Virus record (IMG/VR): IMGVR_UViG_3300042988_000489
Location: 1-28,183 of that record
Strand: one strand, 5' to 3'
Source: a virus
DNA length: 28,183 bases
Shown piece after piece: positions 5,128-24,210 of this stretch (positions are counted from its first letter, which is position 1; every line of letters begins with the position of its first letter). Position numbers and translations under genes: made by a program. The notes beneath the pieces are model-generated. The model was not told the origin of the DNA, searched no databases, and worked only from the letters and a program-made list of their open reading frames with translations.

Positions 5128-5134
5128 GCTTGCC

Positions 5135-5602: not shown

Positions 5603-7026
5603 GCCCAAGGCTTCAGGGGCCGCGCAAACGCCGCTGTCTGCCGCGGCCAGCTGCGTGTGAGCCGCCAGCGCTGCATGTGCCCCGCAAAGGCGTAGTTGCT
5701 GCCCGCGGTGTCTCCCAACTCCACGTTGCCAACGATGATTCGGCTGTTGCCGCTGGGCCGGTACGTGGTGTTCGAGGTGCCTAGCAGCGCGCCATCCTGG
5801 AACAGGTAATAGTTGGTCAGGTCGTTTGCAACTCGGATGTAATACCAGGTGCCCGTGCTGATTGCGCTGCCAGAGATCCTCACGTCTGCGTTTCCGTTGG
5901 CCGTCACGGTGTAGAACGACAACGCACCAGAGATGAGCAGCAGACTCAGCCGCATGAACTGCCCGCTCCCCCACTCGAAGATGTGCGGCGTGTTGGCGGT
6001 GCTGCTGGCGTAGATCCACACGTCCAAAGCCCACGGCGCCGATGGGTCCAGGTCGGCGCTGGTGCTGCTGGTGTAGCGCTCCGTGGAGCTGTCGAACAGC
6101 GTGCTTGTGGTCGCGTAGCTGGCACTCACGCTGCTGAGCGCCTGCGCGCTGCTGGCCGTCGGCGTGCCGGTCTTGGTCCAGGTGATGGCAGTGTTGGAGT
6201 CGACCCACGGGTCCGCTTCCATGGTCACGCTGCTGACGATCAGATCGCGGCCAGGGTCGCCCACTCCGCGCAGGCCGATCAGCGTGATGGCCAGGCCCTC
6301 GGCGCTGGTGCCAGCGCCGTCGATGTCGACCGTCAGCAGCGCATCGTCAGCGATGACCGCACCGCCATCCGTGAACGCGAACGCCGCTGCTGCTGTAGTG
6401 CTGGTCTTTTCGTTGGCGTCGATGGTCAACTTGGTGCCGAGGATGGTCTGCCCGCCATCGTTGATGTCGATGGTGACCGCGCCGCTGGTGCTCTCGCCGA
6501 ACAGCGACGCGCGAACGTCTGTCAGCAGCATGGCGCACGGCGCGCGCATGTAGGCCTTGTCGGTGCCGGTGGTGAGGCTGGTGCTCAGGTCGGAGCTGAC
6601 CGGCAGCCGGTACTCCACGCGCGCGCACTCGGCCGTGCCGAACAGCCGGCCCCAGATGCCAAGCTGTGCGAAGCGCCAGTCTTCCCAGCTGCTGGGCGTG
6701 AGCGTGCCGCACGTCACCTTGTAAAGCCGCGCGTAGGTCTGCGGCGTGCACCAGTTGGCCGCGTTGGTGCTGGCGCTGACCGCAAACGTGGTCAGGTGCA
6801 CGACGACATAGTTGATGCGGCTGGCCGTGAGCGTGACGGTGCCGTCAGCCACGCTGCTGCCGTTGACAGGCCCGCCGTAGTAGCCCCACACCAGCTGGTC
6901 GGTGGTGGTCTGCCGGCGCCCGAAGGTCAACGCAGCCGATGCCGCATCGAACAGGCCATTAATGGCCGCTTCCTTCTGGGCCTGGCTGGCGCTGACGGTG
7001 TCGAGGTGCGTGGTGCTGTTGGCCAT
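5599..7026 (-). CDS. Tail fibre / receptor-binding candidate with C-terminal LamG domain
   Basis: This 475-residue beta-rich protein begins with a short helical attachment-like segment (SASQAQKEAAINGLFDAAS) like that of DUF2793-type phage tip proteins. A Ser/Thr-rich middle follows. From about residue 290 it is a concanavalin-A/laminin-G-like fold (ALDVWIYASSTANTPHIFEW, GTWYYIRVANDLTNYYLFQDG, AFAGHMQRWRLTRSW). Such domains bind sugars or other surface ligands. Position directly after the tail hub gene supports a role in host recognition. The C-terminal LamG end is the likely variable, specificity-determining part. Four bases separate it from the preceding stop. Confidence 0.75.
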   Translation of the reverse strand: MANSTTHLDTVSASQAQKEAAINGLFDAASAALTFGRRQTTTDQLVWGYYGGPVNGSSVADGTVTLTASRINYVVVHLTTFAVSASTNAANWCTPQTYARLYKVTCGTLTPSSWEDWRFAQLGIWGRLFGTAECARVEYRLPVSSDLSTSLTTGTDKAYMRAPCAMLLTDVRASLFGESTSGAVTIDINDGGQTILGTKLTIDANEKTSTTAAAAFAFTDGGAVIADDALLTVDIDGAGTSAEGLAITLIGLRGVGDPGRDLIVSSVTMEADPWVDSNTAITWTKTGTPTASSAQALSSVSASYATTSTLFDSSTERYTSSTSADLDPSAPWALDVWIYASSTANTPHIFEWGSGQFMRLSLLLISGALSFYTVTANGNADVRISGSAISTGTWYYIRVANDLTNYYLFQDGALLGTSNTTYRPSGNSRIIVGNVELGDTAGSNYAFAGHMQRWRLTRSWPRQTAAFARPLKPWA

Positions 7027-7029
7027 GTG

Positions 7030-8085
7030 TCAGGCTCCTGTGGTGACGCGCGCGGCGGTGCCGTTGCCGACCGTGGCGCTGATCTGCGCCACCTGCAGCA
7101 CGCGCTCCTCGTAGCCGTCGGCCAGGGTGTAGGTGTTGGTGGTGGTCTCGGTGTCGAGCACCGCATCGGCCACGCCGCCCAGGCCGGCCTGCACGATGCG
7201 CAGGCTGTAGCGCTCGGTGGCCTCGCCGAGCGGCGCATCGGAGCCATCGGCCAGCGGTGCCGCGTAGCGGGTGCGCCACGTCCAGCGTACCGACTGGCCA
7301 CCGGTGGCAATGGGCGCCAGGTTGACGTTGATCGGCGCCAGCGGCAGCAGGCTGACGAAGCGCAGCGGGTTGATGGTCTGCACAGGCCCCTGAGTCACCT
7401 GGTCGCCCAGCGCCACGCAGCGGTATCGCATGGCCTTGCCGCGGTCGCCCAGCTGCTCGGGCAGGCGCACGACGGCCTCGTCAAGCAGCACAAACCGGTC
7501 GGTCTCGGTGTGCGTGCCCTGCGCCTCCTCGGTGCCCAGCCGGCCGCGCAGGAAGCCACTCAGCCGGTAGCGCCCGGCGCTGAGCAGCGTGGCGCGGCGA
7601 AAGTGCACCACCTCGTCGCCAATCAGCGCACGGTTGCCGCCTTCCAGCAGCGCCGCAGCGGTGATGGTCTCGAGCTCGCCCGACACCACCACGTCGACCC
7701 AGCTGCTCACGTCGATCTGGTTGCCGCCCTCCCAGTCGCCCAGCACCGACTCGCACCGGCCCAGCGTGGCCGCGGTGTTGAGCTGCGCGGCCTCGGTGTA
7801 GGTGGTGCCGCCGTCGCGGCTGCGGTAGACCACAGCGCCGCGCCAGGTGCCGATTGCCGGAGCCGCGGCCACGTAGATGCCCGGAGCGTCGTCCTCCTGA
7901 GCAAGCAAGGGGATGTCCATTGCCTCGAACTGCAGCGCGGTGACGCCGACCATGCTGCCCGGCACCGGGCCTGCAGCGCCGTCGGCCGTGCTGGCGAGCA
8001 CGCTGCCGTCGTAGTCGGCCGCGCGCCAGGTGATGACGCCGCCGTCCTCGGTCTTTTCGAGCAGGCGCAGGCTATAGGTCGTCAT
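7030..8085 (-). CDS. C-terminal part of the tail-tip hub protein (separate frame)
   Basis: This 351-residue frame continues the phage tail_3 / GTA gp15-like hub protein whose N-terminal 745 residues lie in another frame (8072-10309). It starts at ATG 8085, 14 bases inside that gene. The opening TYSLRLLEKTEDGGVITW fits directly after LEPTDVVTVSDD of the upstream frame, as in a single protein. The rest contains VSSWVDVVVSGELE, GRYRLSGFLRGRLGTE and a terminal fibronectin/Ig-like segment (about 245-350). It could be made by reinitiation (GGTGAG just before the ATG) or by ribosomal frameshift, or it may reflect a mutation or sequence error. Confidence 0.75.
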   Translation of the reverse strand: MTTYSLRLLEKTEDGGVITWRAADYDGSVLASTADGAAGPVPGSMVGVTALQFEAMDIPLLAQEDDAPGIYVAAAPAIGTWRGAVVYRSRDGGTTYTEAAQLNTAATLGRCESVLGDWEGGNQIDVSSWVDVVVSGELETITAAALLEGGNRALIGDEVVHFRRATLLSAGRYRLSGFLRGRLGTEEAQGTHTETDRFVLLDEAVVRLPEQLGDRGKAMRYRCVALGDQVTQGPVQTINPLRFVSLLPLAPINVNLAPIATGGQSVRWTWRTRYAAPLADGSDAPLGEATERYSLRIVQAGLGGVADAVLDTETTTNTYTLADGYEERVLQVAQISATVGNGTAARVTTGA

Positions 8086-10309
8086 CGCTCACCGTCACAA
8101 CGTCGGTCGGCTCGAGGTGCGCCCAGGCAAGCGTGGTGGTGAAGCTGCGCACGTTGCGCGCCACCCAGCCGCCGTACAGGATGATGTCGGCCAGCTGCCG
8201 CGCGTGGTCGTCGGTGAGCACCACCGGCACCTCGACGGTGGAGAGCTGGTCGGTCTCACCACCCTGGCGGCGGGCTTCCTGCGCGCCTACCGCGTAGTCG
8301 AGCGCGTAGCTGCGGTAGAGCACGGTCACCGAGCGCGGCAGCTCCTGCTCCTGGCCGCGCTCATGAGCCATGGCGTGCTCGGCCGCCTCGTCCACCTGCG
8401 CGCCCAGGTCGTTGCCCGTGAGCGTGGCCACGCTGCTGCGCACCCGCTTGCGCCAGGCGATCTTGCCGTCGCTCTCGACGCCATCGAACTGGTAGCACAG
8501 CCGCAGCGGCTCCAGCGCCTGCCGGGCGGCCATGCGGCTGGCGCGGCTGTAGCCGATTACCTCGTCGGTCAGCTCGGTGACGTCGATGTCGCTGGCGCTC
8601 AGGCCTGCGGCCTCGCAGATGTGCGTGACGATGGCGCTGAGCAGCACGGTGCCGTCTTGCACGCTGGTGACGTCCGGCCCGCCGTCGCTCTCGGCCCAGC
8701 TGGTGACCGTCACAGGCGTGACGATGCTGGCGTCGTCGCGCAGCGTGCCGGCTGCGATGGCTGCTGCGCGGGCTGCGTCCCAGTAGGCGGTGTTCGAATA
8801 GTTGGGGTCACCCGGCAGCAACACGGGGCCTAGCGCGTTCTGGTACAGCCCGCCGTCGCGGTACTCCACGCCGGCCAGTTGCTTGGCGGTGCCGGTGACG
8901 ATGGTCCACGCGCGATTGGGCACCACCTGGCCGTCGAAGGTCACGCACCACTCGGGGTCGCTCGGCGCCTCGGCCATGCCCAGAGCCTGCGCGATCTGCT
9001 GGTTTCGCGGGCTGTCGGCGGCATAGCAAGTCTTGGCCGGGTGCGTGGCCACGCGGTTGCTCTTCAGCTCGAGCGCGTAGGACATCCAGCTGATATCACC
9101 CTGCGGGTACTGGTCATAGTCGGCCGAGTGCACGATGGTGTACTCGCCAGGGTATGGCCCGCTGTTGCCAATCTCGCGCCGCAGCATGACCGGGGCGTCA
9201 TAGGTGAACGTGCCACCCTGGTCGTAGTACGGCCAGTTGAGCCGTCGGTCGTAAAACGGCGTTGTCGCCGCCCAGACGTTCTGGGGCACGGTTGGTTTGA
9301 CAGGCGCCGGCCCGTACTCAACATCGCCCAACTTGAGCACGTAGTAGCTGTGCAAAACGCTGACGTACTGCGGATCGCCCGGAGTGCCCGGCATGTGCAG
9401 TGTGTTGAGCACAGCAAAGGGCCGCGGGTTGCCCTGCCAACTCCAGAAGTACCCTGAAAAGTTGTAGGCGCCCTTGGCTGCATTGGGGTGCAAAAACGAA
9501 CTCGACGCCTCGAAGTCATCAGCCTGGGCTACGGCCATTGCCGCAAACCCTACAGCGCCTCCAGCTGTTGGCGACGACATAGCCTGGTAGTACGTGTCGC
9601 CGATGGCGTGCACCGGCATGCTGTCCTCGTTGTAGACCCAGGGGTAGACCTTGAGCGGCTCCAGGATGTCGGCCGTTGGTGTGGTGTCCTCCGTCTCCTG
9701 CGTCAGCTCAAACGAGAAGCTCGGGATCCGGTTGCCGTAGTCGCCCAGCGGCAGGTTGGTGAAAACCACGTAGCAGGTGCCGCGGTAGGCCTCGACGTTG
9801 CCGGCGCCCTCCACCGCCTCAATCGTTGCGTCGGGCTCCTGGGTCTCGCTGCCGGGGTAGAGCGTCCAGAACTGGCGGAACTTGGCGTTCTGCACGGCGA
9901 TGGGGTCTTCGCCACCGACGCGCGCGTCATACACCAGCTTGGTGTCGGCCCAGATGCGGCGAACGGCGCCCACCTCGCCGTCGCCGATGGCCACCGCGAA
10001 CGAGCAGGTGTAGGAATAGGTGGTGACCTTCGGGCCACCCTTGCCGCCTTGCTTGTGCGCGGTCTCTACGAAGTCAGCCGCCCAGATGAGCACGCCGGCC
10101 ACGCGGTCGGTGCCGTAGGTCTTCGGGATCGGAGCGCCGAAGCTGCTGATCTGCACCTTGAGGTCTTCGACCCGCGGCCCGTGCTGGCGGGGCGCGTCGA
10201 TCGAACTGCCCACGGCAGACCCCAGCGCCCAGCCGACCTTGGCTCCCATCGGGCCGCCGATGGCAAAGCCAATCGCAGCGCCAGCGGTGGCGACGAGGAG
10301 CTGTGCCAT
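8072..10309 (-). CDS. Tail-tip hub protein, N-terminal part (phage tail_3 / GTA gp15-like)
   Basis: The 745-residue protein corresponds to the first two thirds of the tail hub or host-specificity protein that crowns the tail tip and holds the fibres. The Ala/Gly-rich start (ATAGAAIGFAIGGPMGAK) is a hydrophobic segment common in this family. It is followed by VQISSFGAPIPKTYGTDRVAG, a canonical motif of these hubs, and YSYTCSFAVAIGDGEV. The phage tail_3-type region lies near 560-745 (LSTVEVPVVLTDDHARQLAD, AWAHLEPTDVVTV) and stops abruptly where the family normally goes on. The start at ATG 10309 abuts the NlpC/P60 gene. Stop and next start overlap by 14 bases. Confidence 0.82.
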   Translation of the reverse strand: MAQLLVATAGAAIGFAIGGPMGAKVGWALGSAVGSSIDAPRQHGPRVEDLKVQISSFGAPIPKTYGTDRVAGVLIWAADFVETAHKQGGKGGPKVTTYSYTCSFAVAIGDGEVGAVRRIWADTKLVYDARVGGEDPIAVQNAKFRQFWTLYPGSETQEPDATIEAVEGAGNVEAYRGTCYVVFTNLPLGDYGNRIPSFSFELTQETEDTTPTADILEPLKVYPWVYNEDSMPVHAIGDTYYQAMSSPTAGGAVGFAAMAVAQADDFEASSSFLHPNAAKGAYNFSGYFWSWQGNPRPFAVLNTLHMPGTPGDPQYVSVLHSYYVLKLGDVEYGPAPVKPTVPQNVWAATTPFYDRRLNWPYYDQGGTFTYDAPVMLRREIGNSGPYPGEYTIVHSADYDQYPQGDISWMSYALELKSNRVATHPAKTCYAADSPRNQQIAQALGMAEAPSDPEWCVTFDGQVVPNRAWTIVTGTAKQLAGVEYRDGGLYQNALGPVLLPGDPNYSNTAYWDAARAAAIAAGTLRDDASIVTPVTVTSWAESDGGPDVTSVQDGTVLLSAIVTHICEAAGLSASDIDVTELTDEVIGYSRASRMAARQALEPLRLCYQFDGVESDGKIAWRKRVRSSVATLTGNDLGAQVDEAAEHAMAHERGQEQELPRSVTVLYRSYALDYAVGAQEARRQGGETDQLSTVEVPVVLTDDHARQLADIILYGGWVARNVRSFTTTLAWAHLEPTDVVTVSDDDL

Positions 10310-14740: not shown

Positions 14741-15378
14741 AGGTTGGGCTTCACGGCCCAGCCTGCGCCGAGCACGTTGAACTGGCCGGTGGCCAGCGCG
14801 CCGGCCTGCAGACTCTCGCCCGGCACACTGGGCACGCCGTAGTACACGCGCAGCACGGTGGAGCCCTGGCTGATGCGGAACAGGCAGCTGGTGCTGTTGC
14901 GCGCCGCGGCCTCGATGAAGGCCATGGCCGTGCCGTGTGCCACGCCGTTGCGCACGTCGATGGTGATGTCTTGCGGCGCCAGCAGACCGGCCACGTTGCG
15001 GGTCTTGACGTCCAGCAGCCGCGTGTCGTCCAGCGCATTGGCGGCGCCACCGCCCACGGCGTAGCTGGCGGCCTCGCTCAACGTACCCCAGGTGCTGGCC
15101 GGCGTGAGCGTGCCCGACGCATAGGTGCTGTACTGCGTGGTGTCCAGACCGTTCATCGTGAACGTGTTGGCCGACGTGTCCATGATGTGCACGGCCTGGC
15201 CGTCGAGCTCGACCATGCCGCTGGTTACGGTCCAGTAGCCGACGTCGTTGTCAGACAGGGTGTGGCTGGTCAGCGTGCCGACAGCCGGGTTGGCCTTGGT
15301 GCACGCGGTGGGCGACACGGCCGAGGCGAAGGTGAGCGCGACCTCGACTTTGACGTTGCGCCCGACGATGGTGGTCAT
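14737..15378 (-). CDS. Major tail tube protein
   Basis: The 213-residue protein has the look of a siphophage tail-tube subunit: MTTIVGRNVKVEVALTFA at the start, an Ala/Thr/Gly/Val-rich beta pattern, DVKTRNVAGLLAPQDITIDV in the middle and FRISQGSTVLRVYYGVPSVPGESL towards the end, features of the TP901/GTA-type tube family. It has a strong Shine-Dalgarno (AAAGGACATCACCATG) and is preceded by a terminator, in line with separately tuned high expression. It precedes chaperone and tape-measure genes, the canonical order. The fold is inferred from position and composition. Confidence 0.8.
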   Translation of the reverse strand: MTTIVGRNVKVEVALTFASAVSPTACTKANPAVGTLTSHTLSDNDVGYWTVTSGMVELDGQAVHIMDTSANTFTMNGLDTTQYSTYASGTLTPASTWGTLSEAASYAVGGGAANALDDTRLLDVKTRNVAGLLAPQDITIDVRNGVAHGTAMAFIEAAARNSTSCLFRISQGSTVLRVYYGVPSVPGESLQAGALATGQFNVLGAGWAVKPNL

Positions 15379-15410
15379 GGTGATGTCCTTTCAATGCTGG
15401 GCGCAGGCCC

Positions 15411-15437
15411 AAAGAAAAAGGGCTCCGGTTGGAGCCC
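15411..15437 (-). terminator. Intrinsic terminator upstream of the tail-tube gene
   Basis: On the minus strand GGGCTCC-AACC-GGAGCCC (15420-15437) is a perfect 7-bp stem with a 4-base loop followed by TTTTTCTTT (15411-15419). A second hairpin with GCAA loop (CGGCC-GCAA-GGCCG) lies just before it. It sits between the DUF3168 gene and the tail-tube gene and should reduce read-through from the head genes. Confidence 0.85.
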
Positions 15438-15479
15438 TGCGGCACGGCCTTGCGGCCGGGTTTCGGTGCTGTGCAGCGC

Positions 15480-15836
15480 TCAGACGATCCAGCGCTGCAC
15501 GGTGAGATTGACGGCATCGAGCGCCAGCTCCTCGTCGTAGCCGCCTGAGCGTGCGGTGACGAGGTAGTCGGCATCGGTGGCCACAGCGCCAGCCACGGCA
15601 TCGGCCACAGCCTCGGCACCGGCTGCGGTGGTGGCGTAGCACTGCACCGAGTGGGTGACGCTGGTGCCGTGCAGGGTGTTGTCGAGGCCGTAGTCGCTGT
15701 CGTGCTGGCTCACGAACACGACGAGCGGAAACGCGCTGTCTTGCGGCACTGCATTGGCCGCGATGCGCGTGCTCACCAGCGCGGTCAGCGCCGCGTGCCC
15801 GGCCAGCAGCGCGCGGAATTCGGTGTCGGCACTCAT
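15480..15836 (-). CDS. DUF3168 tail completion protein
   Basis: The 118-residue product starts at ATG 15836 and overlaps the upstream gene by four bases. Features of DUF3168 are FRALLAGHAALTALVSTRIAAN, then FPLVVFVSQHDSDYGLDNTL and HSVQCYATTAAGAEAVADAV. The family forms the tail terminator or completion ring at the head-proximal end (orfg8 in gene transfer agents). It is the last gene before the terminator. Confidence 0.85.
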   Translation of the reverse strand: MSADTEFRALLAGHAALTALVSTRIAANAVPQDSAFPLVVFVSQHDSDYGLDNTLHGTSVTHSVQCYATTAAGAEAVADAVAGAVATDADYLVTARSGGYDEELALDAVNLTVQRWIV

Positions 15837-16348
15837 GGCGCTGGCGCTTTTGGCCTGTTGAGCTTGGCGATGGCCAGCGGCAGTCGCCGGTTGAACTCAG
15901 CCAGCGCCGCACCGAGCATGGCCGCGCCAGCCTTGAGGATGTTGCGGCCGGGCTGCCGTGGGCCGCGGGCGGGCGTCCAGCCGCGATCCAGCCACCTCCA
16001 GTAGAACGGGTCGCGAAAACTCTTGGCACCGGCCTGGCCGCGCTTGGCGGGCTTGACGTTGACGAACACGCCGACGTTGCCCTGCCGCCGCGCGAGCTTG
16101 CTGGTGCGCACGCTGATGGCGCGCTGCACGGTGCCGGGCTTGCGGTAGCCCTTGCGGTAGGCCGCGGCGCTCCACTCTTTGGACAGATCCAGCATCGGCG
16201 TGGCCTTGCGCGCGGCGCGCTGCACCAGGCGCGCACCGGCCGCCAGCGCGTTGCGCAGGGCTCGCACCTTGAGCTTCGGCGCCACACCCAGCAGCGCAGC
16301 GCGCAGGTCTGGCAGGCCCTTGACTTCGGCGCGCAGTCCGTCGTTCAT
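15833..16348 (-). CDS. HK97 gp10-like head-tail protein
   Basis: A 171-residue basic protein starts at ATG 16348 (ATGA overlap). It contains GLRAEVKGLPDLRAALLGV and a helix-rich Ala/Arg/Lys start, followed by AISVRTSKLARRQGNVGVFVNV and FYWRWLDRGWTPARG, the motif E/W-F-G-T/W-x-x-x-P-A-R-P seen in the HK97 gp10 family. This family joins head and tail. The upstream in-frame extension (16447) is low-complexity Arg/Ala text lying in the neighbouring gene and is ignored. Confidence 0.8.
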   Translation of the reverse strand: MNDGLRAEVKGLPDLRAALLGVAPKLKVRALRNALAAGARLVQRAARKATPMLDLSKEWSAAAYRKGYRKPGTVQRAISVRTSKLARRQGNVGVFVNVKPAKRGQAGAKSFRDPFYWRWLDRGWTPARGPRQPGRNILKAGAAMLGAALAEFNRRLPLAIAKLNRPKAPAP

Positions 16349-16680
16349 CGCCCGTCCCTCGCGGCGGTGGAGCACATCAGCTCGAGCACCTCCTGCCCGG
16401 CGCGCGGCTCGATCACGCTCACGATGTCGTGCGGCACGCTGCGCCACAGCACGCGCATGGTCGGCACGATGCCCTCGCGCCAGCGGATGCGCATGCGCAC
16501 ATCGACAGCGCTTTGCACCTGGCCGGCCGCGAAGTATTCTTTGCCGCGCAGGGGCTCGACGCTGGCCCAGCAGGTGATGTGCGTGCTCCAGGTGGCGGAC
16601 TCCTGGCCGAGCGAGTCCACACCAGACGCGCGGGTCTGGATGGTGATGCGCTCGCGCATGTCACCGGCGTTGATGGGCAT
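16345..16680 (-). CDS. Head-tail adaptor / head-closure protein (SPP1 gp16-like)
   Basis: A 111-residue small beta-barrel-like product opens with NAGDMRERITIQTRASGVDSLG, the signature start of the phage head-tail adaptor family. WSTHITCWASVEPLRGKEYF and MRIRWREGIVPTMRV follow. It closes the head after DNA packaging and gives the tail its docking surface. The stop overlaps the gp10-like gene in ATGA. Confidence 0.9.
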   Translation of the reverse strand: MPINAGDMRERITIQTRASGVDSLGQESATWSTHITCWASVEPLRGKEYFAAGQVQSAVDVRMRIRWREGIVPTMRVLWRSVPHDIVSVIEPRAGQEVLELMCSTAARDGR

Positions 16681-16686
16681 GGTGGC

Positions 16687-17271
16687 TCAGCCGCCGTAGT
16701 GGATGGTGTACGGGTCGAGCAGCCGGTCGTAGAAGCGCTGGCCGAGCTGCGTGACGGACTGGCCCACCACCGTGCCGCCGCGGTGCTGGTACAGGTCGGC
16801 GATGCGCATCTTGATCCACGTCTTGACGGCTGCCGGCACGTCGCTGGCCGCGCCGTAGCCGCTGACGAAGCGCACGCGCACGGCGTTGGCCGTGTCGTAA
16901 GTGGTTGGCCACTGGTAGCCGTAGGCGGGCAGCACCCAGCCCGGTGGCATGGCACTGTCGAGCACGTAGGCCGAGCTGCTCAGTGTGACCTCGGTGCCGG
17001 TGGTGTCGTAGTAGTACACGCCGGTGATGCTGGCGACCTTCGGCATGCCGAGCTCGAGCTCCAGCAGCGGGAAGGTGTCGACCACGCGCTCCCAGGTCTG
17101 CGTGATCAGCGCGCGGCCGGTCAGGTGCTCGCACTCCTGCCGGGCCGAGGTGATCAGCGCGTCGATCAGGTCATCGTCGGTGGTGATGTCGCTGTCGACG
17201 CGGCACTGCAGCTTGGCCTCGGCGCGCGTGACCGGCTCGGAGGCCGGCGCGGTGAACAGTCGGAGGGTCAT
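16687..17271 (-). CDS. Head-tail connector (gp6-like)
   Basis: The 194-residue product starts at ATG 17271. It has the standard N-terminus of the phage connector family (RLFTAPASEPVTRAEAKLQC and DDDLIDALITSARQECEHLTGR), then WERVVDTFPLLELELGMPKV and WIKMRIADLYQHRG near the end. It forms the ring directly under the portal. A far longer in-frame extension upstream, to 18243, is antisense-like low-complexity text and is rejected. Four-base overlap with the repeat protein gene. Confidence 0.87.
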   Translation of the reverse strand: MTLRLFTAPASEPVTRAEAKLQCRVDSDITTDDDLIDALITSARQECEHLTGRALITQTWERVVDTFPLLELELGMPKVASITGVYYYDTTGTEVTLSSSAYVLDSAMPPGWVLPAYGYQWPTTYDTANAVRVRFVSGYGAASDVPAAVKTWIKMRIADLYQHRGGTVVGQSVTQLGQRFYDRLLDPYTIHYGG

Positions 17272-17894
17272 CGTGTGCGCCTGCTGATGTTGGCCATTCG
17301 CCGCCCGAGCTGCAGGCTGCGCATGCCCAGCGCCGGGCCGTGGCCGATGGGGGCGGCTGAGAGTTGCGCCGCCACCGCCTCGCCGCTGTACGTCAGCGTG
17401 GCCGCCTGGCCGGTGAGCACGTAGGTGCCGCCGTCGGCGGTCATGATGATCGTGCGGGTAAGCGTGGCGGCCTGGCCGGTGAGGGAGTAGGTGCCGGACG
17501 CCGCAGCGAGGCTGTACGTGCCGGCGGGCGTGTAGGTCAGCGTGGCAGCCTGGCCGCTCAGGCTGTAGCTTCCCTGCGCGGCCGGCAGTGAGTAGCTGGC
17601 CAGCAGGCCGGCAGCCTGGCCGGTCAGGGTGTAGGCACCCTGCGCGGCGGTGATGGCGCGGGTGGCGGTGATGGCTGCGGCTTGGCCGGTGAGGCTGTAG
17701 GTGCCGCAGATGGCGGTTAGGGTGTAGAAGACTGCTCCAACAGTCTTTGGCGGCCCTTGCAGCATCTGCACATTGCCCGGCACCCCAGACAACGCCGAAC
17801 CGAGACGACGCCTGACGGTCTGCGTCGCATTGCCAACCGACGGCAGCGCCACCACCTGTGCCGGCGTGCTGCGAAACTGCGGATACCTGCGCAT
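17268..17894 (-). CDS. Repeat protein with five GxYxLTGQAA motifs
   Basis: The 208-residue product starts at ATG 17894 (one-base overlap with the hydrolase stop). After an N-terminal head of about 60 residues with MRRYPQFRSTPAQVVAL, it contains five motifs: GTYSLTGQAAAIT, GAYTLTGQAAGLL, GSYSLSGQAATLT, GTYSLTGQAATLT and GTYVLTGQAATLT, spaced 22-26 residues. Each unit should make a strand-turn-strand hairpin, so a beta-solenoid or beta-sandwich rod is plausible. The C-terminus is basic (MRSLQLGRRMANISRRTR). Function unknown; head or neck surface fibre is a guess from context. Confidence 0.72.
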   Translation of the reverse strand: MRRYPQFRSTPAQVVALPSVGNATQTVRRRLGSALSGVPGNVQMLQGPPKTVGAVFYTLTAICGTYSLTGQAAAITATRAITAAQGAYTLTGQAAGLLASYSLPAAQGSYSLSGQAATLTYTPAGTYSLAAASGTYSLTGQAATLTRTIIMTADGGTYVLTGQAATLTYSGEAVAAQLSAAPIGHGPALGMRSLQLGRRMANISRRTR

Positions 17895-18646
17895 CACACG
17901 CTCCGGTGCGACATCGTGCGCGCCACAAAGCAGCGAGCCAGGAAGTCGCTGACCTCCTGCGGCACGAAGTGGCTGGCGTCGCCGTGGTCGCCGGTGCACA
18001 CGGTAAGGTCAGACTCGGCCATTGAGCCAGCCACCACGGCGCGCATGGCGTCAGTGTTGGCGGCCTTGTTGACCACGGTGTCACCAGCGCTGGCCCAAAA
18101 CCGCATCGGCAGCCGATCAAACAGCGACGAAGACAGAAGCGCAGGATCGAAGCCCGCCGTTTTGGTGGAGTAGTCCGACCCGTTGGCTGCGATGCCGTAT
18201 GCCGTGCGGATGTCCGCCGCGAAACTGCCTGCGTTGCCGTCAAACATGTCGGCCAGACTGCACACGGGATAGATGCCGAACCAGCCCGCGTAGCCGCCCT
18301 GTGATGCTGTCAGCAGCCCTGTGCACCCGCCCATGCTCTGCGAAAAGATCGCGGTTGCCGTGGGCGCGTAGTTCGTGGCGATGTACGCCTCCAGCGCTGC
18401 ATAAGCATCAAGCCCGGCTTGGTTGCCCCAGTTGTTGCCGGCCGCGGTTGACGACGCCATCAAATAGCCGTCGTCGGTAATGCGGTTGACCACATCGGTT
18501 TTCCGCGTGTCGGTGGTCAGCGACGCGGCGGTTTCACCGGCACCGTGGTGGTAAATCACGCACTTGCCGCCGTTGCTCCATCCGCTCGGCACCAAGATGC
18601 GAACGGCGTAGCCGCCGACTGTGGTGTCAACGGTCGAATAGGCCAT
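17894..18646 (-). CDS. Alpha/beta-hydrolase (esterase-like)
   Basis: The 250-residue protein has a complete catalytic set: oxyanion region HHGAGE (residues 33-38), nucleophile elbow SQSMGG with Ser104, Asp189 in SAGDTVVNK and His226 in GDASHF. Order and spacing fit an alpha/beta hydrolase of esterase, lipase or peptidase type. I chose the ATG at 18646 (MAYSTVDTT); a TTG at 18670 is possible. It lacks a signal peptide. Placed between structural genes of the head, it may be a virion-bound enzyme acting on surface polymers (for instance O-acetyl groups) or a moron. The substrate cannot be told from sequence. Confidence 0.75.
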   Translation of the reverse strand: MAYSTVDTTVGGYAVRILVPSGWSNGGKCVIYHHGAGETAASLTTDTRKTDVVNRITDDGYLMASSTAAGNNWGNQAGLDAYAALEAYIATNYAPTATAIFSQSMGGCTGLLTASQGGYAGWFGIYPVCSLADMFDGNAGSFAADIRTAYGIAANGSDYSTKTAGFDPALLSSSLFDRLPMRFWASAGDTVVNKAANTDAMRAVVAGSMAESDLTVCTGDHGDASHFVPQEVSDFLARCFVARTMSHRSV

Positions 18647-18815
18647 CGGTCTGCTCTGCTTTGCATCCAATGCCTGCTGCTGCCAGCATGTTCTGAAAGA
18701 TCAGAACTACCAAGCTCTCATCCGAAATCTCCCCAGCAAGTCCAAGCGCAAAGACTCCGGCCTCGATCATCGAGGCCGTAACTTCCACCGATCCCGTTGC
18801 GTCCGTCATCATCAC
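18627..18815 (-). CDS. Small hypothetical protein
   Basis: A 60-62 residue acidic, mostly helical protein, with alternative starts at GTG 18815, ATG 18812 or ATG 18809. The earliest two overlap the stop of the upstream gene (GTGATG). The stretch VEVTASMIEAGVFALGLAGE and LVVLIFQNMLAAAGI is amphipathic, not a clear membrane span. Its stop lies 20 bases inside the hydrolase gene. Family and function unknown. Confidence 0.55.
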   Translation of the reverse strand: MMMTDATGSVEVTASMIEAGVFALGLAGEISDESLVVLIFQNMLAAAGIGCKAEQTDGLFDR

Positions 18816-19564
18816 GCCACGTAGGTGACGATGCGCTCGAAGGTGTCGTCGCAGGCGGTCGCGGTGGCGCGCAGGATCACAGTTTTGCCGTTCAGGTCGC
18901 CCGCGCCGAAGTCCACCGAGTAGATGCCGACACCAACCTCGGTGACGCTGGACAGCGTGCCCGCGCCGAACGCGCCGCCGTCAATGGAGCGCGTCACCGT
19001 CACGGTCTTGCCCGTGGCCGGCGCGTGGTTCGTGCTGTCCGTCATCATGAACGTGAAGCCGGTATAGGCCGCGTTCGTCTTGATGTTGCCCTTGATGGGC
19101 ACGGCGCCGCTGGACAAGTTGACTTCGCCCGTTCCGGTGCCGACCTTGAGCGTGACAGCCGGATAGCCCGCAGTAGCAGGCGATGCGACTGCGGTGCCGG
19201 TCCACTGCGTGACGCTCACGTCGAGCACGTCGCCGCTGCCGATCAGCGAGTCATAGACGTTGGCCGCCAGGACCACCAACTCATGCCGCACAGCCAGTGC
19301 CCCGGACACCTGCACCACGATGACCAGCGACCCCAGCGTGTCGGTGTCGGTCGAGTCCAGCACGGCGTAATAGTTGCCGTTGCTGATGTGCGTGGCCCCT
19401 CCGCTGTTCTTGTTGGCCAGCGTTGTCGCGCCGGCCTTGTGCAGCTTGATGTCCGTGTTCGCGATGGTCAGCGCGGTTTCTGCGGTGTTGCCGTCCGTGG
19501 CGTCCACGAAGGGGCCGAGCAACACCTCCTGCGAGGCGGTCGATTGCTTGACGAAGATGGTCAT
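18812..19564 (-). CDS. Beta-rich virion structural candidate with duplicated domain
   Basis: A 250-residue protein starts at ATG 19564 (MTIFVKQSTASQEVL). It has few charged residues and many Thr, Gly, Val and Ala. Two halves look related: around 18-90 (PFVDATDGNTAETALTI ... NGNYYAVLDSTDTDTLG) and around 160-250 (FMMTDSTNHAPATGKTV ... GVGIYSVDFGAGDLNGK), each with D-x-T at the start and G-x-Y-x-V-x-x-x-x-x-D-x-x-G at the end. Such modules occur in phage baseplate/fibre proteins. Its exact place in the virion is unknown. Confidence 0.65.
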   Translation of the reverse strand: MTIFVKQSTASQEVLLGPFVDATDGNTAETALTIANTDIKLHKAGATTLANKNSGGATHISNGNYYAVLDSTDTDTLGSLVIVVQVSGALAVRHELVVLAANVYDSLIGSGDVLDVSVTQWTGTAVASPATAGYPAVTLKVGTGTGEVNLSSGAVPIKGNIKTNAAYTGFTFMMTDSTNHAPATGKTVTVTRSIDGGAFGAGTLSSVTEVGVGIYSVDFGAGDLNGKTVILRATATACDDTFERIVTYVA

Positions 19565-19566
19565 GA

Positions 19567-20268
19567 TCAGGCCCTTGCCAGCATGCGGCGATACGTGGAA
19601 ATTGCAGCGATTGAAGATCCGCCACCAGCCTCGTCGGCATACAGCCTCAGGATGGTGGACGACGAGGCGGACACCTGACTGAGCCACAGCCCGGGCCGCC
19701 CGGCGTCCGTGATGCTGCTGTCGGTAGCGCTCAGGCAATTGGTCTGGCCAGACTGCCAGGAGCCCGATGAATTGAGCCAGTTGGAATCCGACGAACGCTG
19801 CACACGCAGCGCAATCGTGGTGCCGGCTACGTCAAGCGTGCAGGAGTACGTCACGCCGCTGGTGATCGTGGGGGTGCTGCCAGTGCCGGCCACCTTCGTA
19901 AGAGTGGTCGCCACGTACTTGAAGATGGCGAATCTGTCGGAAACGCCGCTCGCCTGGTTGAACAGGAACCCGAAGTAGCCTGTTTGCGCGCTGGTCGAAA
20001 GCCTGGCGCCTGGGCCTGCAATGGCGTCGCCGCCACCGTTGAAAAGCACTTCTGCGGTGACGGTGTAGTCGGCAGATGCCGGCGTGCCTGATGCGTACCA
20101 AAGCCCGTTCGCGCTGGCGCCCGTGCCAGGGTCCAGCGCGTTGCTTTGAATCGTCGGCGTGTCACCGTTGCCGGCCAGCGCCGTCCACGTCGCACCCGTC
20201 TCTCCGGTATGCGCCGAAATGGCGGTGCCGTTGGTGTCGGTGAACGTGTCGTTGACGAACTGCGCCAC
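19567..20268 (-). CDS. LamG/concanavalin-like domain protein
   Basis: The 233-residue protein starts at a GTG (20268), three bases after a 12-codon ORF. It opens with FVNDTFTDTNGTAISAHTGETGATWTAL in two parts, the usual entry of a jelly-roll (LamG-like) domain, followed by VTAEVLFNGGGD, GYFGFLFNQAS, TYSCTLDVAGTTIALRVQRS and AGRPGLWLSQVSASSSTILR. It may bind glycans or decorate the capsid or neck. It is not obviously homologous to the LamG domain of the fibre at 5599-7026. Ligand unknown. Confidence 0.7.
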   Translation of the reverse strand: MAQFVNDTFTDTNGTAISAHTGETGATWTALAGNGDTPTIQSNALDPGTGASANGLWYASGTPASADYTVTAEVLFNGGGDAIAGPGARLSTSAQTGYFGFLFNQASGVSDRFAIFKYVATTLTKVAGTGSTPTITSGVTYSCTLDVAGTTIALRVQRSSDSNWLNSSGSWQSGQTNCLSATDSSITDAGRPGLWLSQVSASSSTILRLYADEAGGGSSIAAISTYRRMLARA

Positions 20269-20271
20269 GGA

Positions 20272-20310
20272 TCAGGCTCCGACGATGATGCGCTTCCAGT
20301 ATTCCCACAT
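20272..20310 (-). CDS. Twelve-residue leader ORF with strong ribosome-binding site
   Basis: ATG 20310 follows GGGGAGGTAGCC, the strongest Shine-Dalgarno in this region, and encodes MWEYWKRIIVGA before a TGA. The GTG of the LamG-like gene lies three bases further on. It may serve to bring ribosomes to that weak GTG by coupling. It could also be a remnant of a longer gene. Confidence 0.45.
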   Translation of the reverse strand: MWEYWKRIIVGA

Positions 20311-20312
20311 GG

Positions 20313-20558
20313 CTACCTCCCCGCCGCGCGTGCGCGCTCAATGGCCGGCGCCAGGATGCGGATGTCGCGCTTGAGCGCCAGCCAGGCCTCGCGCCCGCGG
20401 TTGTCGTCGATCTGCGCAGCGATCTCGGCTGCGCGGATGCGCAGCGCCTCGCCATCGGCACACACACGGGCCAGCTCGGCCTCGAGCGGCGCATTGAGGG
20501 CGTTGACGTGATCGCGCTTTGCGCACAGCTCGTCGTATTGCGTTTCCAGGCTGCTCAT
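20313..20558 (-). CDS. Short coiled-coil protein
   Basis: The ATG at 20558 overlaps the previous stop (ATGA) and opens an 81-residue helical protein (MSSLETQYDELCAKRD, then LEAELARVCADGEALRIRAAEIAAQIDD). Heptad-like spacing of Leu, Ala and Ile points to a coiled coil. The C-terminus is basic (LKRDIRILAPAIERARAAGR). Similar short coil proteins act as scaffold or packing factors in phages, but the role here is unknown. Confidence 0.65.
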   Translation of the reverse strand: MSSLETQYDELCAKRDHVNALNAPLEAELARVCADGEALRIRAAEIAAQIDDNRGREAWLALKRDIRILAPAIERARAAGR

Positions 20559-20797
20559 GCGTGCCCTCGCTCTCGGATGGTCTGGTAATGGATCAGGTCT
20601 TGCATGCCGCGAGCCAGCAGGCGCGCACCGTGCTGCACGATGGCTGGCTTGCCCTTCAGCGGGGCGCCGTTGTCGTCGAGCCAGACCACGCTGACCTCGC
20701 TGCCGTCCGTGCACGCGATGCGCAGCTCGTGGCCGTTGGTGAGCACGTCGGCCACGGTCTTGCCGCGCACGCGCATGGAGATGGCGCCGTAGGTCAT
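20555..20797 (-). CDS. Small hypothetical protein
   Basis: An 80-residue product with a beta-rich first half (VRGKTVADVLTNGHELRIA, SEVSVVWLDDNGAPLKGKP) and a helical end (ARLLARGMQDLIHYQTIRERGHA). No known motif. It is four bases downstream of the 141-residue gene and overlaps the coiled-coil gene by four bases, so it is part of the same operon. Confidence 0.65.
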   Translation of the reverse strand: MTYGAISMRVRGKTVADVLTNGHELRIACTDGSEVSVVWLDDNGAPLKGKPAIVQHGARLLARGMQDLIHYQTIRERGHA

Positions 20798-20801
20798 GAC
20801 G

Positions 20802-21227
20802 TCAGGCCAGCTGCCACAGGCCGTTGGTGGCGTCGAAGTCGATGGTGAACGACTCGCCGGCCGCCAGCGTGATGCTGCTGCCGTAGTCGTAGAACGCGAC
20901 CAGCGGATCGGCCGGGCTGGTGGGCGTGTCGTTGTAGATGCTGACGTAGCGCAACGGCCCGATGGAGCCGCCGCTGGCCGTCAGCACCTCGTCGGCGATG
21001 GTCACCTTGGCCGTGCCGCTGGTCTCGCTCAACGTCACGGTGTCGAGCGTCATACCCCCCGCGCTGTAGCCGTTGCCGGCGCTGATCTCGGTGAGGTTGG
21101 CGAACACCGTGTTGGTGTTCACCGGCGCCGTGTTGGTCGCCGCGCCCTTGAACGTGTGGCTGGACCAGTTGTGGACAGCCTTGTTGAGCTGCTCCACGTA
21201 GTCGAGGAACTTGGTGTAGGTGGCCAT
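20802..21227 (-). CDS. Virion-like beta-rich protein (decoration candidate)
   Basis: A 141-residue protein begins with a helix (MATYTKFLDYVEQLNKAVHNW) and then is an Ala/Thr/Gly/Val-rich beta domain (GGMTLDTVTLSETSGTAKVTI, RYVSIYNDTPTSPADPLVAF and the terminal ESFTIDFDATNGLWQL). The last segment is typical of phage structural proteins. A Shine-Dalgarno AGGACACCACCCATG is shared in form with other virion genes. It lies just after a terminator. Exact role unknown, capsid decoration or head fibre likely. Confidence 0.65.
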   Translation of the reverse strand: MATYTKFLDYVEQLNKAVHNWSSHTFKGAATNTAPVNTNTVFANLTEISAGNGYSAGGMTLDTVTLSETSGTAKVTIADEVLTASGGSIGPLRYVSIYNDTPTSPADPLVAFYDYGSSITLAAGESFTIDFDATNGLWQLA

Positions 21228-21250
21228 GGGTGGTGTCCTGTGCGCGGCGG

Positions 21251-21281
21251 AAACGAAAAGGCCGCCCGGTGAGGGGCGGCC
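21251..21281 (-). terminator. Intrinsic terminator after the capsid block
   Basis: On the minus strand the 8-bp stem GGCCGCCC (21274-21281) and GGGCGGCC (21260-21267), with a 6-base loop, is followed by TTTTCGTTT (21251-21259). It follows the 168-residue gene and precedes the 141-residue gene, so it should end most transcripts from the capsid genes and set a step in expression. Confidence 0.85.
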
Positions 21282-21320
21282 CTTGATGTCTCAGCCGCTG
21301 GCATCGCCAGCGGGCGAGGA

Positions 21321-21827
21321 TCAGTCGGCGATGGCCTCGGCGGCCGTGGCGCCGCTGTAGCGCTTGCCGTAGAGGTTGTAGATCACCACGCAGCCGCGCG
21401 ACGCGGTGGCCGCGTGGCCGGTGCCGTCGACGCGGAAGCAGTCGAAGCCGTTGGCCGTGTCCAGGTCGGACGCCAGCACATCGATGATGTACAGGCTGTC
21501 CTTGCTGTTGGTGGTCTGGGTGGTGAACGTGTTGGACGTCACCGCGGTCTCGGTCATGGTCTTGCTGGCCGCGTAGTCGGTGTTGGCCAGCATGCGCGTG
21601 AAGGCCAGCGCCTTCTCGCCGGTGCCGGCCACCGCAGTGGCCTGCTTCAGCGTGATGGTGCTGCCCGTGACGGTGGTGCCGTCGGCGATGCTGATGATGA
21701 TCTGCGCCCGCGTGTAGCCCTTCATCGACACGTAGGTGGTGTCGCCGAGGGTGGACGTGAGCAGCAGGCCGGCAGCGGCCACCACGGTGGTGACTTGCTC
21801 GTCCATGCGAGCGTTGGTGCTGATCAT
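21321..21827 (-). CDS. Capsid-associated structural candidate
   Basis: A 168-residue protein starts at ATG 21827 after a strong AAAGGATCATCACC leader and 31 bases after the capsid stop. It is Thr/Ala-rich with regular beta strands (VSMKGYTRAQIIISIADGTT, GSTITLKQATAVAGTGEKAL, DSLYIIDVLASDLD, GCVVIYNLYGKRY). Position and strong translation suggest an abundant head decoration or cement protein. No motif proves this. Confidence 0.65.
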   Translation of the reverse strand: MISTNARMDEQVTTVVAAAGLLLTSTLGDTTYVSMKGYTRAQIIISIADGTTVTGSTITLKQATAVAGTGEKALAFTRMLANTDYAASKTMTETAVTSNTFTTQTTNSKDSLYIIDVLASDLDTANGFDCFRVDGTGHAATASRGCVVIYNLYGKRYSGATAAEAIAD

Positions 21828-21858
21828 GGTGATGATCCTTTCAGTCGATGGGTTGGGA

Positions 21859-23178
21859 TCAGCGCGCCTGCAGCGTCACGAAGTGCGACAGCGTGTTGCT
21901 GCCGTTCTTGCGAGCGATCGGAGCCGAGAGCCAGGGCTGGCCGGTCATGCGCATCCGGAAGCGGAACGCGGTGAGGTTCTGGTCGAACCACAGATGCATC
22001 GAGGTGTCGGACTCGATGCCGGTGGACTTGACCAGCGCCAGGTACTGCGACAGGTCGCCGAGGATGATGTCGCCCAACGAAGACAGCGCCGATGCCGCCT
22101 CGGTGAACACCACGGGGCGCCCCATCAGCCGGTAGTCGGGGCCGGTCAGCGTGCTGGGGCCGTCGAACTGGATGGGGATGCCGCCGACGTTCTCGCTGCC
22201 GGCGACGTTCTTGATCGGCGTCGACAGCGAGCCCAGCTGCGGCAGGATGTCCTGGTTGGCGATCCACACGGCGTTGCGGAAGTTCCGCGCCGGCATGCGG
22301 GCCATCATCTTCAGGATGTTCTGCGCCAGGATGGTGTTGGCCGCCTGGCTGGTCTCCTTGGTCACCGTGACCAGGGCCGGCGACGCCAGGATGCCGAGGG
22401 GCATGCCGACGCCGTTGCCGTTGACGATGGCGTCGGTGACCTTGAACGCGATCTTCTGCGGCGCCTTGCGCGACACGTAGGCCGCCATCAGCGAAGCGTC
22501 CTGCAGCAGCTCATCGGTCATCGGCACCAGGGCCGTGACGCGGTTGAGCTTCAGCGACAGCTCCTTCAGGCTGGGCTTGCTCTGGGTCATGGCCGCGGCC
22601 TCGTTGTCCCAGTAGGCCAGGATGCCGCCGCTGGTCTGGTGCGAGGTCGTCTCATCGACGGGCAGCGTCATGTTGTTCGACTCGCTGGGCATGACGTCGC
22701 AGCGCGGCAGCAGCTCGGCGTCATCCATCACGACGGTCATGATCTGCTGGCGCCACACCGGCGGCACGGGGAAGCCACCATCCGCGCCCGACGACTCGTT
22801 GCCGTAGGTCGTGGCCGATGCTGCGCTCATCTGCAGCAGGCGATCATCGACGGCCTGGGGCCGCAGCACGGCCTCCTTGACCTTGACCGCGAATTCGCCG
22901 AGCGACGAGAAGCCGCGCGCCGGGTCGGACTCGATGACGGGCGCAGCGTTGCCGATGCGCGCGCCAGCCGGCAGCTCGAGCGAACGCTCGGCGTCGATGG
23001 CGGCCTGCACCTGCTCGATGCTGGCCTGCGCCGCGGTGGCGTCGGCCTGGGCTGCGGCGAACTGCAGCGCCTGCTCGGCGCTCAAGTCTTGGCCGTCGGG
23101 AGTGGATGCCGTGATCGTCTTCATGGTTTCGACGGCCGCGGCCTTGCGCTGCTGGAGCGCACGGAGTCGCTTGATCAT
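21859..23178 (-). CDS. HK97-fold major capsid protein
   Basis: The 439-residue product has the two-part make-up of HK97 capsids. A coiled-coil delta/scaffold domain spans about 1-100 (MIKRLRALQQRKAAAVETMK, AAQASIEQVQAAIDAER) and is probably removed by the upstream protease. The shell domain carries GGFPVPPVWRQQIM, ALVPMTDELLQDASLMAAYV, AIVNGNGVGMPLGIL and RNAVWIANQDILPQLGSLS. The C-terminal half has GRPVVFTEAASALSSLGDI and LWFDQNLTAFRFRMRMTGQP, standard for the family. It starts at ATG 23178 after AAAGGCAAGC. Confidence 0.93.
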   Translation of the reverse strand: MIKRLRALQQRKAAAVETMKTITASTPDGQDLSAEQALQFAAAQADATAAQASIEQVQAAIDAERSLELPAGARIGNAAPVIESDPARGFSSLGEFAVKVKEAVLRPQAVDDRLLQMSAASATTYGNESSGADGGFPVPPVWRQQIMTVVMDDAELLPRCDVMPSESNNMTLPVDETTSHQTSGGILAYWDNEAAAMTQSKPSLKELSLKLNRVTALVPMTDELLQDASLMAAYVSRKAPQKIAFKVTDAIVNGNGVGMPLGILASPALVTVTKETSQAANTILAQNILKMMARMPARNFRNAVWIANQDILPQLGSLSTPIKNVAGSENVGGIPIQFDGPSTLTGPDYRLMGRPVVFTEAASALSSLGDIILGDLSQYLALVKSTGIESDTSMHLWFDQNLTAFRFRMRMTGQPWLSAPIARKNGSNTLSHFVTLQAR

Positions 23179-23265
23179 GATGCTTGCCTTTCGTGCAATG
23201 CGTGCGGCCCGCTCGCGGCGGGCCTGGTTGGTCTGCTGTTGACTGGTGCGGCCGTCGGGCCGCCA

Positions 23266-23285
23266 GGGCAGGCGTGGGCCTGCCC
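23266..23285 (-). other. GC-rich hairpin between protease and capsid genes
   Basis: GGGCAGGC and GCCTGCCC pair into an 8-bp stem with a 4-base loop, followed by a smaller hairpin in the 123-base gap before the capsid gene. There is no T-tract, so it is probably an RNA processing or stabilising element rather than a terminator. Confidence 0.45.
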
Positions 23286-23301
23286 CAGGGACTGGAGCCA
23301 G

Positions 23302-24210
23302 TCAGGTCTCCAGGATCTGGATCTGCCGCTGCGCTGCAGCGGTGCTCATGCCACGCCGCACGCGGCGGGCCTTGGCGATGACGTCATCGAGCGTGGCGAT
23401 GCGGTCGGCCATGCCGGAGGCCACGGCGTCGCTGGCCAGCTTCATGCGGCCCTCGCCGAACGCCGGCCCGCGCACCACGTCAACCGGCACGCCCCGGCCC
23501 TTGGCCACGGCGCGGGTGAAGGCGTTGCCGTAGGCGTCGACCATGGCCTGCAGGTAGCCGCGGGTGTCGTCGCTGAGCGGGCCGCTCATGCCTTCGCTCT
23601 TGTACTTGCCGTAGCTGATGTACTCGCGCTTGATGCCCTCGCGGGCCTGCGCCTCGCTGTCGTCGGTGTAGGGCATGCGAACGCCGATGCTGCCCACCAT
23701 GCCGCTGGGCGTCACCACGATCTCGCTGGCCTGGCTGGCCACCCAGTAGGCAGCGCTGGCCGCTTCGGCGTTGGCCACGGCAATGACCGGCTTGACCGCG
23801 CGCGCCGCGGCCACCACGTCGGCGAGCTCGGCGGTGCCGCTGACGCTGCCGCCCGGCGAGTCGATGTCGAGCACGATGGTGCCCACCTCGTCGCTGGCCA
23901 TGGCCTGGCGGATCTGCGCGGCCACCGCCTCGGTGCTGGTGAGCGGCCGCGAGGCGTTGTTTGCCGCGTAGGCGCGATGCGTCATGACGCCGTAGATGGG
24001 CACCACCTGCACGCCGGCGCCGCTGGCAGCCTGGGCCTGCGCGCGGCGCTGCACGGCAGCCTCTGGCGCGTCGCCGACGGCCTCGGCGATCTGCAGGGCG
24101 TCGAGGCGCACGCCGGAGGACCAGCGCACCAGCACGCCCTCCATGGCGCCCCAGGCCTCGTCGGTGACAGCCCACGGCTGCGAGTAGAAAGCGGAAAGCA
24201 GGCGCAGCAT
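23302..24210 (-). CDS. S49-family capsid maturation protease
   Basis: This 302-residue SppA/ClpP-fold serine protease has its nucleophile Ser152 in EAASAAYWVAS and its likely general base Lys204 in YGKYKSEG. The conserved strand TIVLDIDSPGGSVSG lies at residues 111-125 and VGSIGVRMPY follows the active site. It cleaves scaffold and capsid domains during prohead maturation. It starts at ATG 24210, one base after the portal stop, and lies directly before the capsid gene, the usual order. Confidence 0.92.
   Translation of the reverse strand: MLRLLSAFYSQPWAVTDEAWGAMEGVLVRWSSGVRLDALQIAEAVGDAPEAAVQRRAQAQAASGAGVQVVPIYGVMTHRAYAANNASRPLTSTEAVAAQIRQAMASDEVGTIVLDIDSPGGSVSGTAELADVVAAARAVKPVIAVANAEAASAAYWVASQASEIVVTPSGMVGSIGVRMPYTDDSEAQAREGIKREYISYGKYKSEGMSGPLSDDTRGYLQAMVDAYGNAFTRAVAKGRGVPVDVVRGPAFGEGRMKLASDAVASGMADRIATLDDVIAKARRVRRGMSTAAAQRQIQILET

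Follow-up and report, generated by a model that had tools for sequence, protein, structure and literature searches.

An exchangeable block of genes between the capsid and head-tail connector genes in a phage late operon

We describe a block of genes of about 4 kb in the late operon of a phage represented by IMG/VR record IMGVR_UViG_3300042988_000489; the whole 28,183 bp of the record was analysed and is referred to here as the window. Every gene of the block, which extends from position 21227 down to 17268, is on the minus strand, and the block lies between the capsid genes and the gene for a gp6-like head-tail connector. The interval that holds it is an insertion hotspot, far more variable than neighbouring junctions, and its contents differ as a unit in two pairs of closely related phages. 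The block probably serves as a plug-in device by which the phage adheres to bacteria; to the fuller reading, that it is an accessory and exchangeable cassette of adhesion and enzyme functions located at the capsid/neck boundary and anchored by a C-terminal tag, we give roughly even chances. An original prediction, made from the window's sequence, had singled out the block as an accessory insertion, and this finding is real, with the corrections given below, and more general than could be seen from the window.

An insertion hotspot between the capsid and connector genes

At the left boundary of the block, in the direction of transcription, is the major capsid protein (MCP) gene (21859-23178), whose product is of the HK97 type and matches phrog_10 with an E value of 5.9e-41. 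At the right boundary is the connector gene (16687-17271), whose product matches phrog_442 (E 1.7e-25) and also PF05135, with 26.6 bits against a cut-off of 21.2, as expected of a gp6-like connector. The gene directly following MCP encodes a 168-aa capsid-partner protein (21321-21827; alignment of 14 sequences, phrog_28483, of unknown function). It is present 3' of MCP in nearly all of the related loci surveyed, the two profile hits being a median of 108 nt apart (n = 85), and it belongs with the capsid; its product is perhaps a head decoration protein, and a search of the PDB gave no significant relative. Because of this pairing with MCP, we place the insertion site between the 168-aa gene and the connector gene. 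The predicted arrangement, a block of nearly 4 kb between capsid and connector and after a terminator, thus stands for the length of the gap and for a terminator-like hairpin, and is amended in that the direct neighbour of MCP is the 168-aa gene.

The extent of variation at this site was determined in related loci, designated here by L numbers, as the gap from the stop of the 168-aa gene to the residue at which the connector profile hit starts; for the gap and hairpin counts, 14 loci that were duplicates or overlapped others had first been taken out manually. In the 52 de-duplicated loci the gap varies from 25 bp to 7.4 kb, with 15 loci at 200 bp or less, 12 at 200-700 bp, and 25 above 700 bp, 13 being at least 3 kb. 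Gaps longer than 1 kb are present in 24 of the 52 loci, compared to 4/85 between MCP and the 168-aa gene, 3/37 between the connector and Hc1 genes, and 6/45 between the TerL and portal genes, all measured alike. Outside of these 52 are many loci with the 168-aa gene and no connector hit, some of which have 4.7-10 kb downstream (e.g. L062, L068, L074 and L075).

Exchange of the cassette in closely related phages

Comparison of gene neighbourhoods, which had been proposed as a way of seeing if the whole block is exchanged together, gave a positive answer twice. The first case is that of the window and its sister phage L017 (IMGVR_UViG_3300044825_001298), which are 97-99% identical in TerL, the 168-, 141- and 81-aa proteins, the connector, and the major tail protein (MTP). 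Their DNA identity ends at 20271, three bases ahead of the gene for a 233-aa protein, and resumes near 17739, inside the repeat array of the last gene of the block, such that the segment 20270-17740, from the 233-aa gene through a hydrolase gene, is replaced. In its place L017 has genes encoding 362-aa and 135-aa proteins, and its repeat protein, 220 aa in length, has a different N-terminus. We considered the 362-aa protein as a candidate tail-fibre protein, and as no Pfam, PHROG, phage tblastn or PDB match supports that reading we call it unrelated only. The second case is that of L040 and L041, which are 99.7% identical until 64 nt past the 168-aa gene; 3.95 kb and 3.77 kb respectively are then unmatched, and identity resumes with the final 35 codons of the last open reading frame (ORF) and continues into the connector gene. 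The last ORFs of these two phages have different stalks and the same tail. A search of plasmids with the block DNA gave a single 50-bp match only. We also note that the MCPs of the window and L017 share only 60% identity, with the genes on either side being 96-97% identical, and the capsid protein itself has apparently been exchanged.

A C-terminal tag on connector-adjacent proteins

The last gene of the block encodes a 208-aa repeat protein (17268-17894), which has a basic N-terminus, a stalk of GxYxLTGQAA repeats (approximately 17735-17396) and a C-terminal tag (17348-17271), and its reading frame overlaps the connector start through ATGA. The repeats recognised in the original prediction are borne out, with a best 60-residue self-match of 0.42 compared to at most 0.28 in 60 shuffles. 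In a first set of loci, the connector-adjacent ORFs of the window, L010, L017, L040, L041, L051 and L055 all consist of a tandem-repeat stalk followed by an arginine-rich, acid-poor end, and the tails share the pattern R-x-x-N-[ILVA]-[QSN], with one or two x. The pattern was written post hoc from five sequences, and in the first set it is found in 6 of 1437 ORFs, all of them connector-adjacent; the ORF of the window itself escaped the ORF picker.

A second set of 80 loci was fetched by the connector and was unused in defining the tag; four of these have no upstream ORF. Here the tag ends 6 of the 76 connector-adjacent ORFs and none of the 934 others (Fisher p = 1.5e-7; one pair of near-duplicates is included, and those in the set as a whole are L120/L121 and L184/L186). 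A hidden Markov model of the tag, built from the first set only, ranks connector-adjacent tails 1-5 of 1010, four of them with E values of 6e-8 or lower, and recovers L116, which the pattern misses. Tandem repeats show the same association, being present in 15 of 64 connector-adjacent ORFs and 5 of 698 other ORFs, at a threshold of 0.40 that was chosen after the second-set values were known. The codons of the tag vary, including in the AT-rich phage L124, and the distance from the tag to the connector start ranges from an overlap to 56 nt; the constraint therefore appears to act on the protein and not on ribosome binding. A ribosome-binding-site constraint was considered as the cause of the tag and rejected on these grounds, the ORFs of L010, L055 and L124 stopping 10-56 nt ahead of the connector start. 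In L010 a LamG domain, the repeats and the tag are in one polypeptide, whereas in the window the corresponding parts are separate genes.

We propose tentatively, as a possibility that falls somewhat short of an even chance, that R-x-x-N-[ILVA]-[QSN]-[TAR] with arginine-rich surroundings is a conserved docking peptide, which would mount unrelated adhesin and stalk modules on the necks of siphophages that have a connector of this type and also serve as a recombination joint for cassette exchange, the latter because the coding sequence of the tag directly abuts the connector gene. These proteins would then be an undescribed class of neck fibres, defined by the plug rather than by stalk or head. 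Among the papers searched by titles and abstract openings we found nothing on adhesin cassettes between capsid and connector genes, and nothing on this motif; the connector-linked C-terminal tag is the part for which no description was found in that search.

Proteins encoded by the block

The first gene of the block encodes a 141-aa protein (20802-21227), a conserved lead that matches phrog_644 (E 6.8e-11) and has a 59% identical homologue in podovirus ctVRi840. It is followed by genes for an 80-aa protein (20555-20797) and a highly charged 81-aa protein (20313-20558), 92.5% and 98.8% identical respectively in L017, and a 12-codon open frame (20272-20310) with a similar frame in L017, which is the last conserved stretch ahead of the swapped segment. 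The genes beyond it encode the 233-aa protein (19567-20268), which is in the swapped segment and absent from L017, a 250-aa protein (18812-19564), a 62-aa open frame (18627-18815) that has no relatives found and may not be a gene, a 250-aa esterase-type alpha/beta hydrolase (17894-18646), and the 208-aa repeat protein. The description of the block's products as low in charge holds for the 233-, 250-, 250- and 208-aa proteins and not for those of 80 and 81 aa. The 81-aa protein had further been called a coiled coil, a label that a heptad test does not support, 399 of 2000 shuffles having given an equally good result.

The 233-aa protein had been described as LamG-like, a label that finds no support in Pfam (no match at E<=1), NCBIfam or the PDB, and a scan of viral contigs found no relative. 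Its resemblance by eye to a 385-aa protein of ctVRi840 has a BLASTP E value of 0.15, and we do not claim homology. The 250-aa protein encoded at 18812-19564 shares its N-terminal half with other viral contigs: residues 1-155/175 are 72-75% identical in two of them, and residues 1-123 are 80.5% identical in a Microcystis phage, where the gene is downstream of a lytic transglycosylase gene. Its matches in the PDB to viral fusion glycoproteins (E 0.05-0.4) are at the level of chance.

The assignment of the hydrolase, by comparison, is well founded. Ser104, in the GxSxG-like elbow SMGG, Asp189 and His221, which we take from general knowledge of the alpha/beta hydrolase fold to be the catalytic triad, are invariant in all six aligned sequences, the window's included. 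Its profile matches a PET hydrolase in the PDB (E 3.4e-5), and there is no match in Pfam. Homologues with 32-40% identity are encoded by the Arthrobacter phages ArV2, Seahorse and Faja, and the relatives are C-terminal domains of proteins annotated as virion structural, tail fibre or esterase proteins. In ArV2 and Seahorse the hydrolase forms the C-terminal domain of a longer protein encoded at the tail-fibre locus, whereas in the window it is a free-standing gene at the capsid/neck junction. We did not count phrog_10356 as a neck-hydrolase fusion, which it resembles in that its positions 1-103 match the Hc1 of the window and its positions 675-851 match the hydrolase; the family may merge unrelated proteins, since the ArV2 protein matches only 357-852 and the L017 protein only 1-103.

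The locations of these relatives raise the question of whether the block encodes tail-tip or baseplate fibres or spikes, adhesins merely encoded here and assembled on the tail. The hydrolase homologues of ArV2 and Seahorse come from the end of the tail module where tail fibres are encoded, the relative of the N-terminal half of the 250-aa protein follows a lytic transglycosylase gene, and the position of a gene is not necessarily the position of its product in the virion. However, the usual place for such a protein is already occupied in the window by a tail-end protein with a LamG domain (5599-7026), the tag goes with the connector-adjacent gene, and the site recurs in a podovirus, which has a different type of tail; we consider this alternative unlikely. 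The tail-fibre-like settings of the relatives support a role in adhesion, be it at the neck or elsewhere on the virion.

Contents of the site in related phages

At the equivalent site in related phages, Pfam matches identify LamG domains in L010, L041 and L054, right-handed beta-helices in L043 and L026 (and below the cut-off in L014), and collagen repeats in L014 and L187; a weak polysaccharide-lyase match in L013 is below the cut-off, and L201 (phage ctUhy936) encodes a GDSL and sialate-acetylesterase protein. The remainder of the 24 proteins of relatives that were compared to Pfam have no match at E<=0.01. In podovirus ctVRi840 (MW202742), the stretch from MCP to the first neck-tail gene, phrog_394, encodes a pectate lyase as well as homologues of the 141-aa protein (59% identity) and of the repeat protein; this phage differs from the window in having another enzyme and another neck protein, and in its repeat protein, which has RRRRD at its end and lacks the motif with Asn.

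Collagen-like GxDGxDG proteins are encoded directly before the connector in L187, L190, L170 and L156; L187, the only one of these on which Pfam was run, has confirmed collagen repeats and a weak CBM5/12 match. In L112, positions 2451-9559 contain, by eye, a T7-type scaffold gene and a capsid gene followed by genes whose products are of the fibronectin and LamG types or related to the window's 250-aa protein, and this is possibly the same insertion site in another type of phage.

Transcription and base composition

Between the capsid genes and the block is a terminator-like hairpin (21257-21284, minus strand) with a GC-rich stem followed by T-rich sequence, which a standard terminator scanner missed. 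Similar hairpins are present 3' of the 168-aa gene in 34 of 85 loci compared to 94 of 1105 positions following other ORFs, a count that retains the near-duplicates L058-L063, and a hairpin also precedes the connector in phages that have no block (L016, L045 and L056). Its presence where nothing is inserted makes it a feature of the junction rather than of the cargo. We note that one stem pair of the hairpin is changed on both sides between the window and L017, from G-C to C-G, with the stem being kept.

The hairpin bears on a further alternative, that the block proteins, or the repeat protein, decorate the capsid surface and cover the shell rather than the neck. The block comes after MCP and its 168-aa partner, there are collagen-like proteins in the blocks of relatives, and the glycan-binding head spikes of the gene transfer agent RcGTA are a precedent (PMC7296036). 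However, a hairpin between the capsid genes and the block would, if working, lower rather than raise the copy number of the block proteins, and the recurring tag goes with the connector and not with MCP. We regard capsid decoration as improbable, somewhat more so than assembly on the tail.

A third alternative is that the block is non-virion cargo of moron-like genes at a permissive junction, acting, for example, in lysogenic conversion or modification of the host surface. The lower GC content of the swapped segment (0.638, compared to about 0.69 in the capsid and tail genes) would fit this, as would the transferase- and methyltransferase-like genes seen by eye at the site in some relatives. 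However, no promoter-like site was found in 15000-23500 in a search limited to the sigma-70 type, the reading frames overlap into the connector gene, and the domains found in relatives are of adhesin and depolymerase classes. A moron would be expected to have its own promoter and terminator; here no sigma-70-type site was found, and the hairpin is upstream of the block and shared with phages that lack one. Control by regulation of its own, named in the original prediction as an observation that would count against a virion module, is likewise not what we see, given the same hairpin, the overlapping frames and the lack of such a promoter-like site. Cargo is in our view a doubtful explanation, on a par with capsid decoration.

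A proposed adhesion device and its known analogues

The exchange of adhesins in siphophages has usually been sought at the tail tip. If the block is an adhesion and enzyme cassette at the capsid/neck boundary, the repeat protein would be a fibre stalk, docked through its basic C-terminal tag on the portal or connector or on the adjoining capsid, and the 233-aa and 250-aa proteins and the hydrolase would be carried by it or mounted beside it. These proteins would bind or de-esterify surface glycans, and the cassette could help the particle to attach to or cross the outer polysaccharide of the host before the tail-end LamG protein engages, acting as a second adhesion device next to that protein. 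The whole device would then be replaced in one step when recombination takes place between the conserved genes on the capsid side and the tag or connector. The predicted module for decorating the head or neck with adhesive and enzymatic parts agrees with the two swaps and with the domains of relatives, which are as expected for such parts; its location on the head or neck is what we infer, because relatives of two of its parts are at tail-fibre-like places elsewhere.

Several observations weigh against this interpretation. The relatives of the hydrolase in Arthrobacter phages and of the 250-aa protein in the Microcystis phage are both at such tail-fibre-like loci. The wider family can do without the cassette, 15 of the 52 loci having gaps of 200 bp or less, and some intervals contain ordinary cargo such as glycosyl- or acetyl-transferase- or DNA methyltransferase-like genes (L029 and L013, by eye). 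The strict tag is absent from 70 of the 76 connector-adjacent ORFs in the second set, and thus marks one subset of phages, and 6 of 14 hand-listed proteins from loci with long intervals have no arginine-rich end. AlphaFold yielded no usable fold for either the repeat protein, which is modelled as beta-rich with a pLDDT of 49.5, or the 233-aa protein, whose model is useless with a pLDDT of 31; Foldseek with the repeat-protein model gave no match at E<=0.001.

The nearest analogue of the block is the neck passage structure (NPS) of lactococcal phages. In the 936 and P335 (TP901-1) groups, the NPS is an accessory and non-essential neck collar whose gene occupies a hotspot within the structural module; it combines a constant anchor with swapped carbohydrate-binding ends, some of which resemble pectin or alginate enzymes or carbohydrate esterases, and its location at the collar was demonstrated by immunogold for Phi15 (PMC6669499, PMC4759559, PMC4493119). 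The window's block is similarly accessory, in a hotspot of the structural module, and at the sequence level composed of a constant part, presumed to be the anchor, and a swapped adhesive part. There are clear differences, however, in that the NPS gene as described there encodes a protein anchored by a BppU-like N-terminus, with a helical coiled coil as its stalk, and is located by mtp or after bppL, whereas the window has a short C-terminal arginine-rich tag, a stalk of small-residue repeats and a site before the connector. No Pfam or PHROG match to a BppU-like N-terminal anchor was found in the block, which is accordingly not a member of the NPS family on that account of its anchor, though it may work alike.

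The head spikes of RcGTA (Rcc01079/Rcc01080) are glycan-binding fibres that the particle carries besides its tail fibres, with the fibre attached by a Leu/Gly N-terminal peptide to a pentameric jellyroll base at the capsid vertices (PMC7296036). The window's repeat protein begins MRRYPQFRSTPAQ, which on reading contains no Leu/Gly peptide of this type, and no RcGTA relatives are among the PHROG, Pfam and PDB matches of the block proteins. On our reading the block would work like the lactococcal neck fibres or the gene-transfer-agent head spikes, and it need be neither. If this is correct, there is a second, neck-side site of adhesin exchange with a recognisable plug sequence, and host-interaction genes could be found in metagenomic phages from position and a short motif, even where adhesin and stalk both lack detectable relatives; attachment at the neck would be directly testable in these phages.

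Other features of the record

The late operon on the minus strand contains, in order, genes for TerS, TerL, portal, an S49-type protease, MCP, the 168-aa protein, the block, the connector, Hc1, a Neck1-type protein, MTP, the tape measure, and tail-assembly and NlpC-like proteins. It ends with a split tail protein followed by the tail-end protein, in which the LamG domain is identified by Pfam. A tRNA-Ser call antisense within the MCP gene (23040-23137, plus strand) is probably a false positive, and a 149-aa frame at 15391-15840 (minus strand), with 28% Lys+Arg, is probably the wrong frame of a tail-terminator gene. At the end of the record is an integron integrase gene (165-1166, plus strand; TIGR02249, 439 bits with a cut-off of 265), which adjoins a second tyrosine recombinase gene (frame 1138-2337); either the window is from a prophage next to a chromosomal integron, or an IntI-type gene is part of the phage itself.

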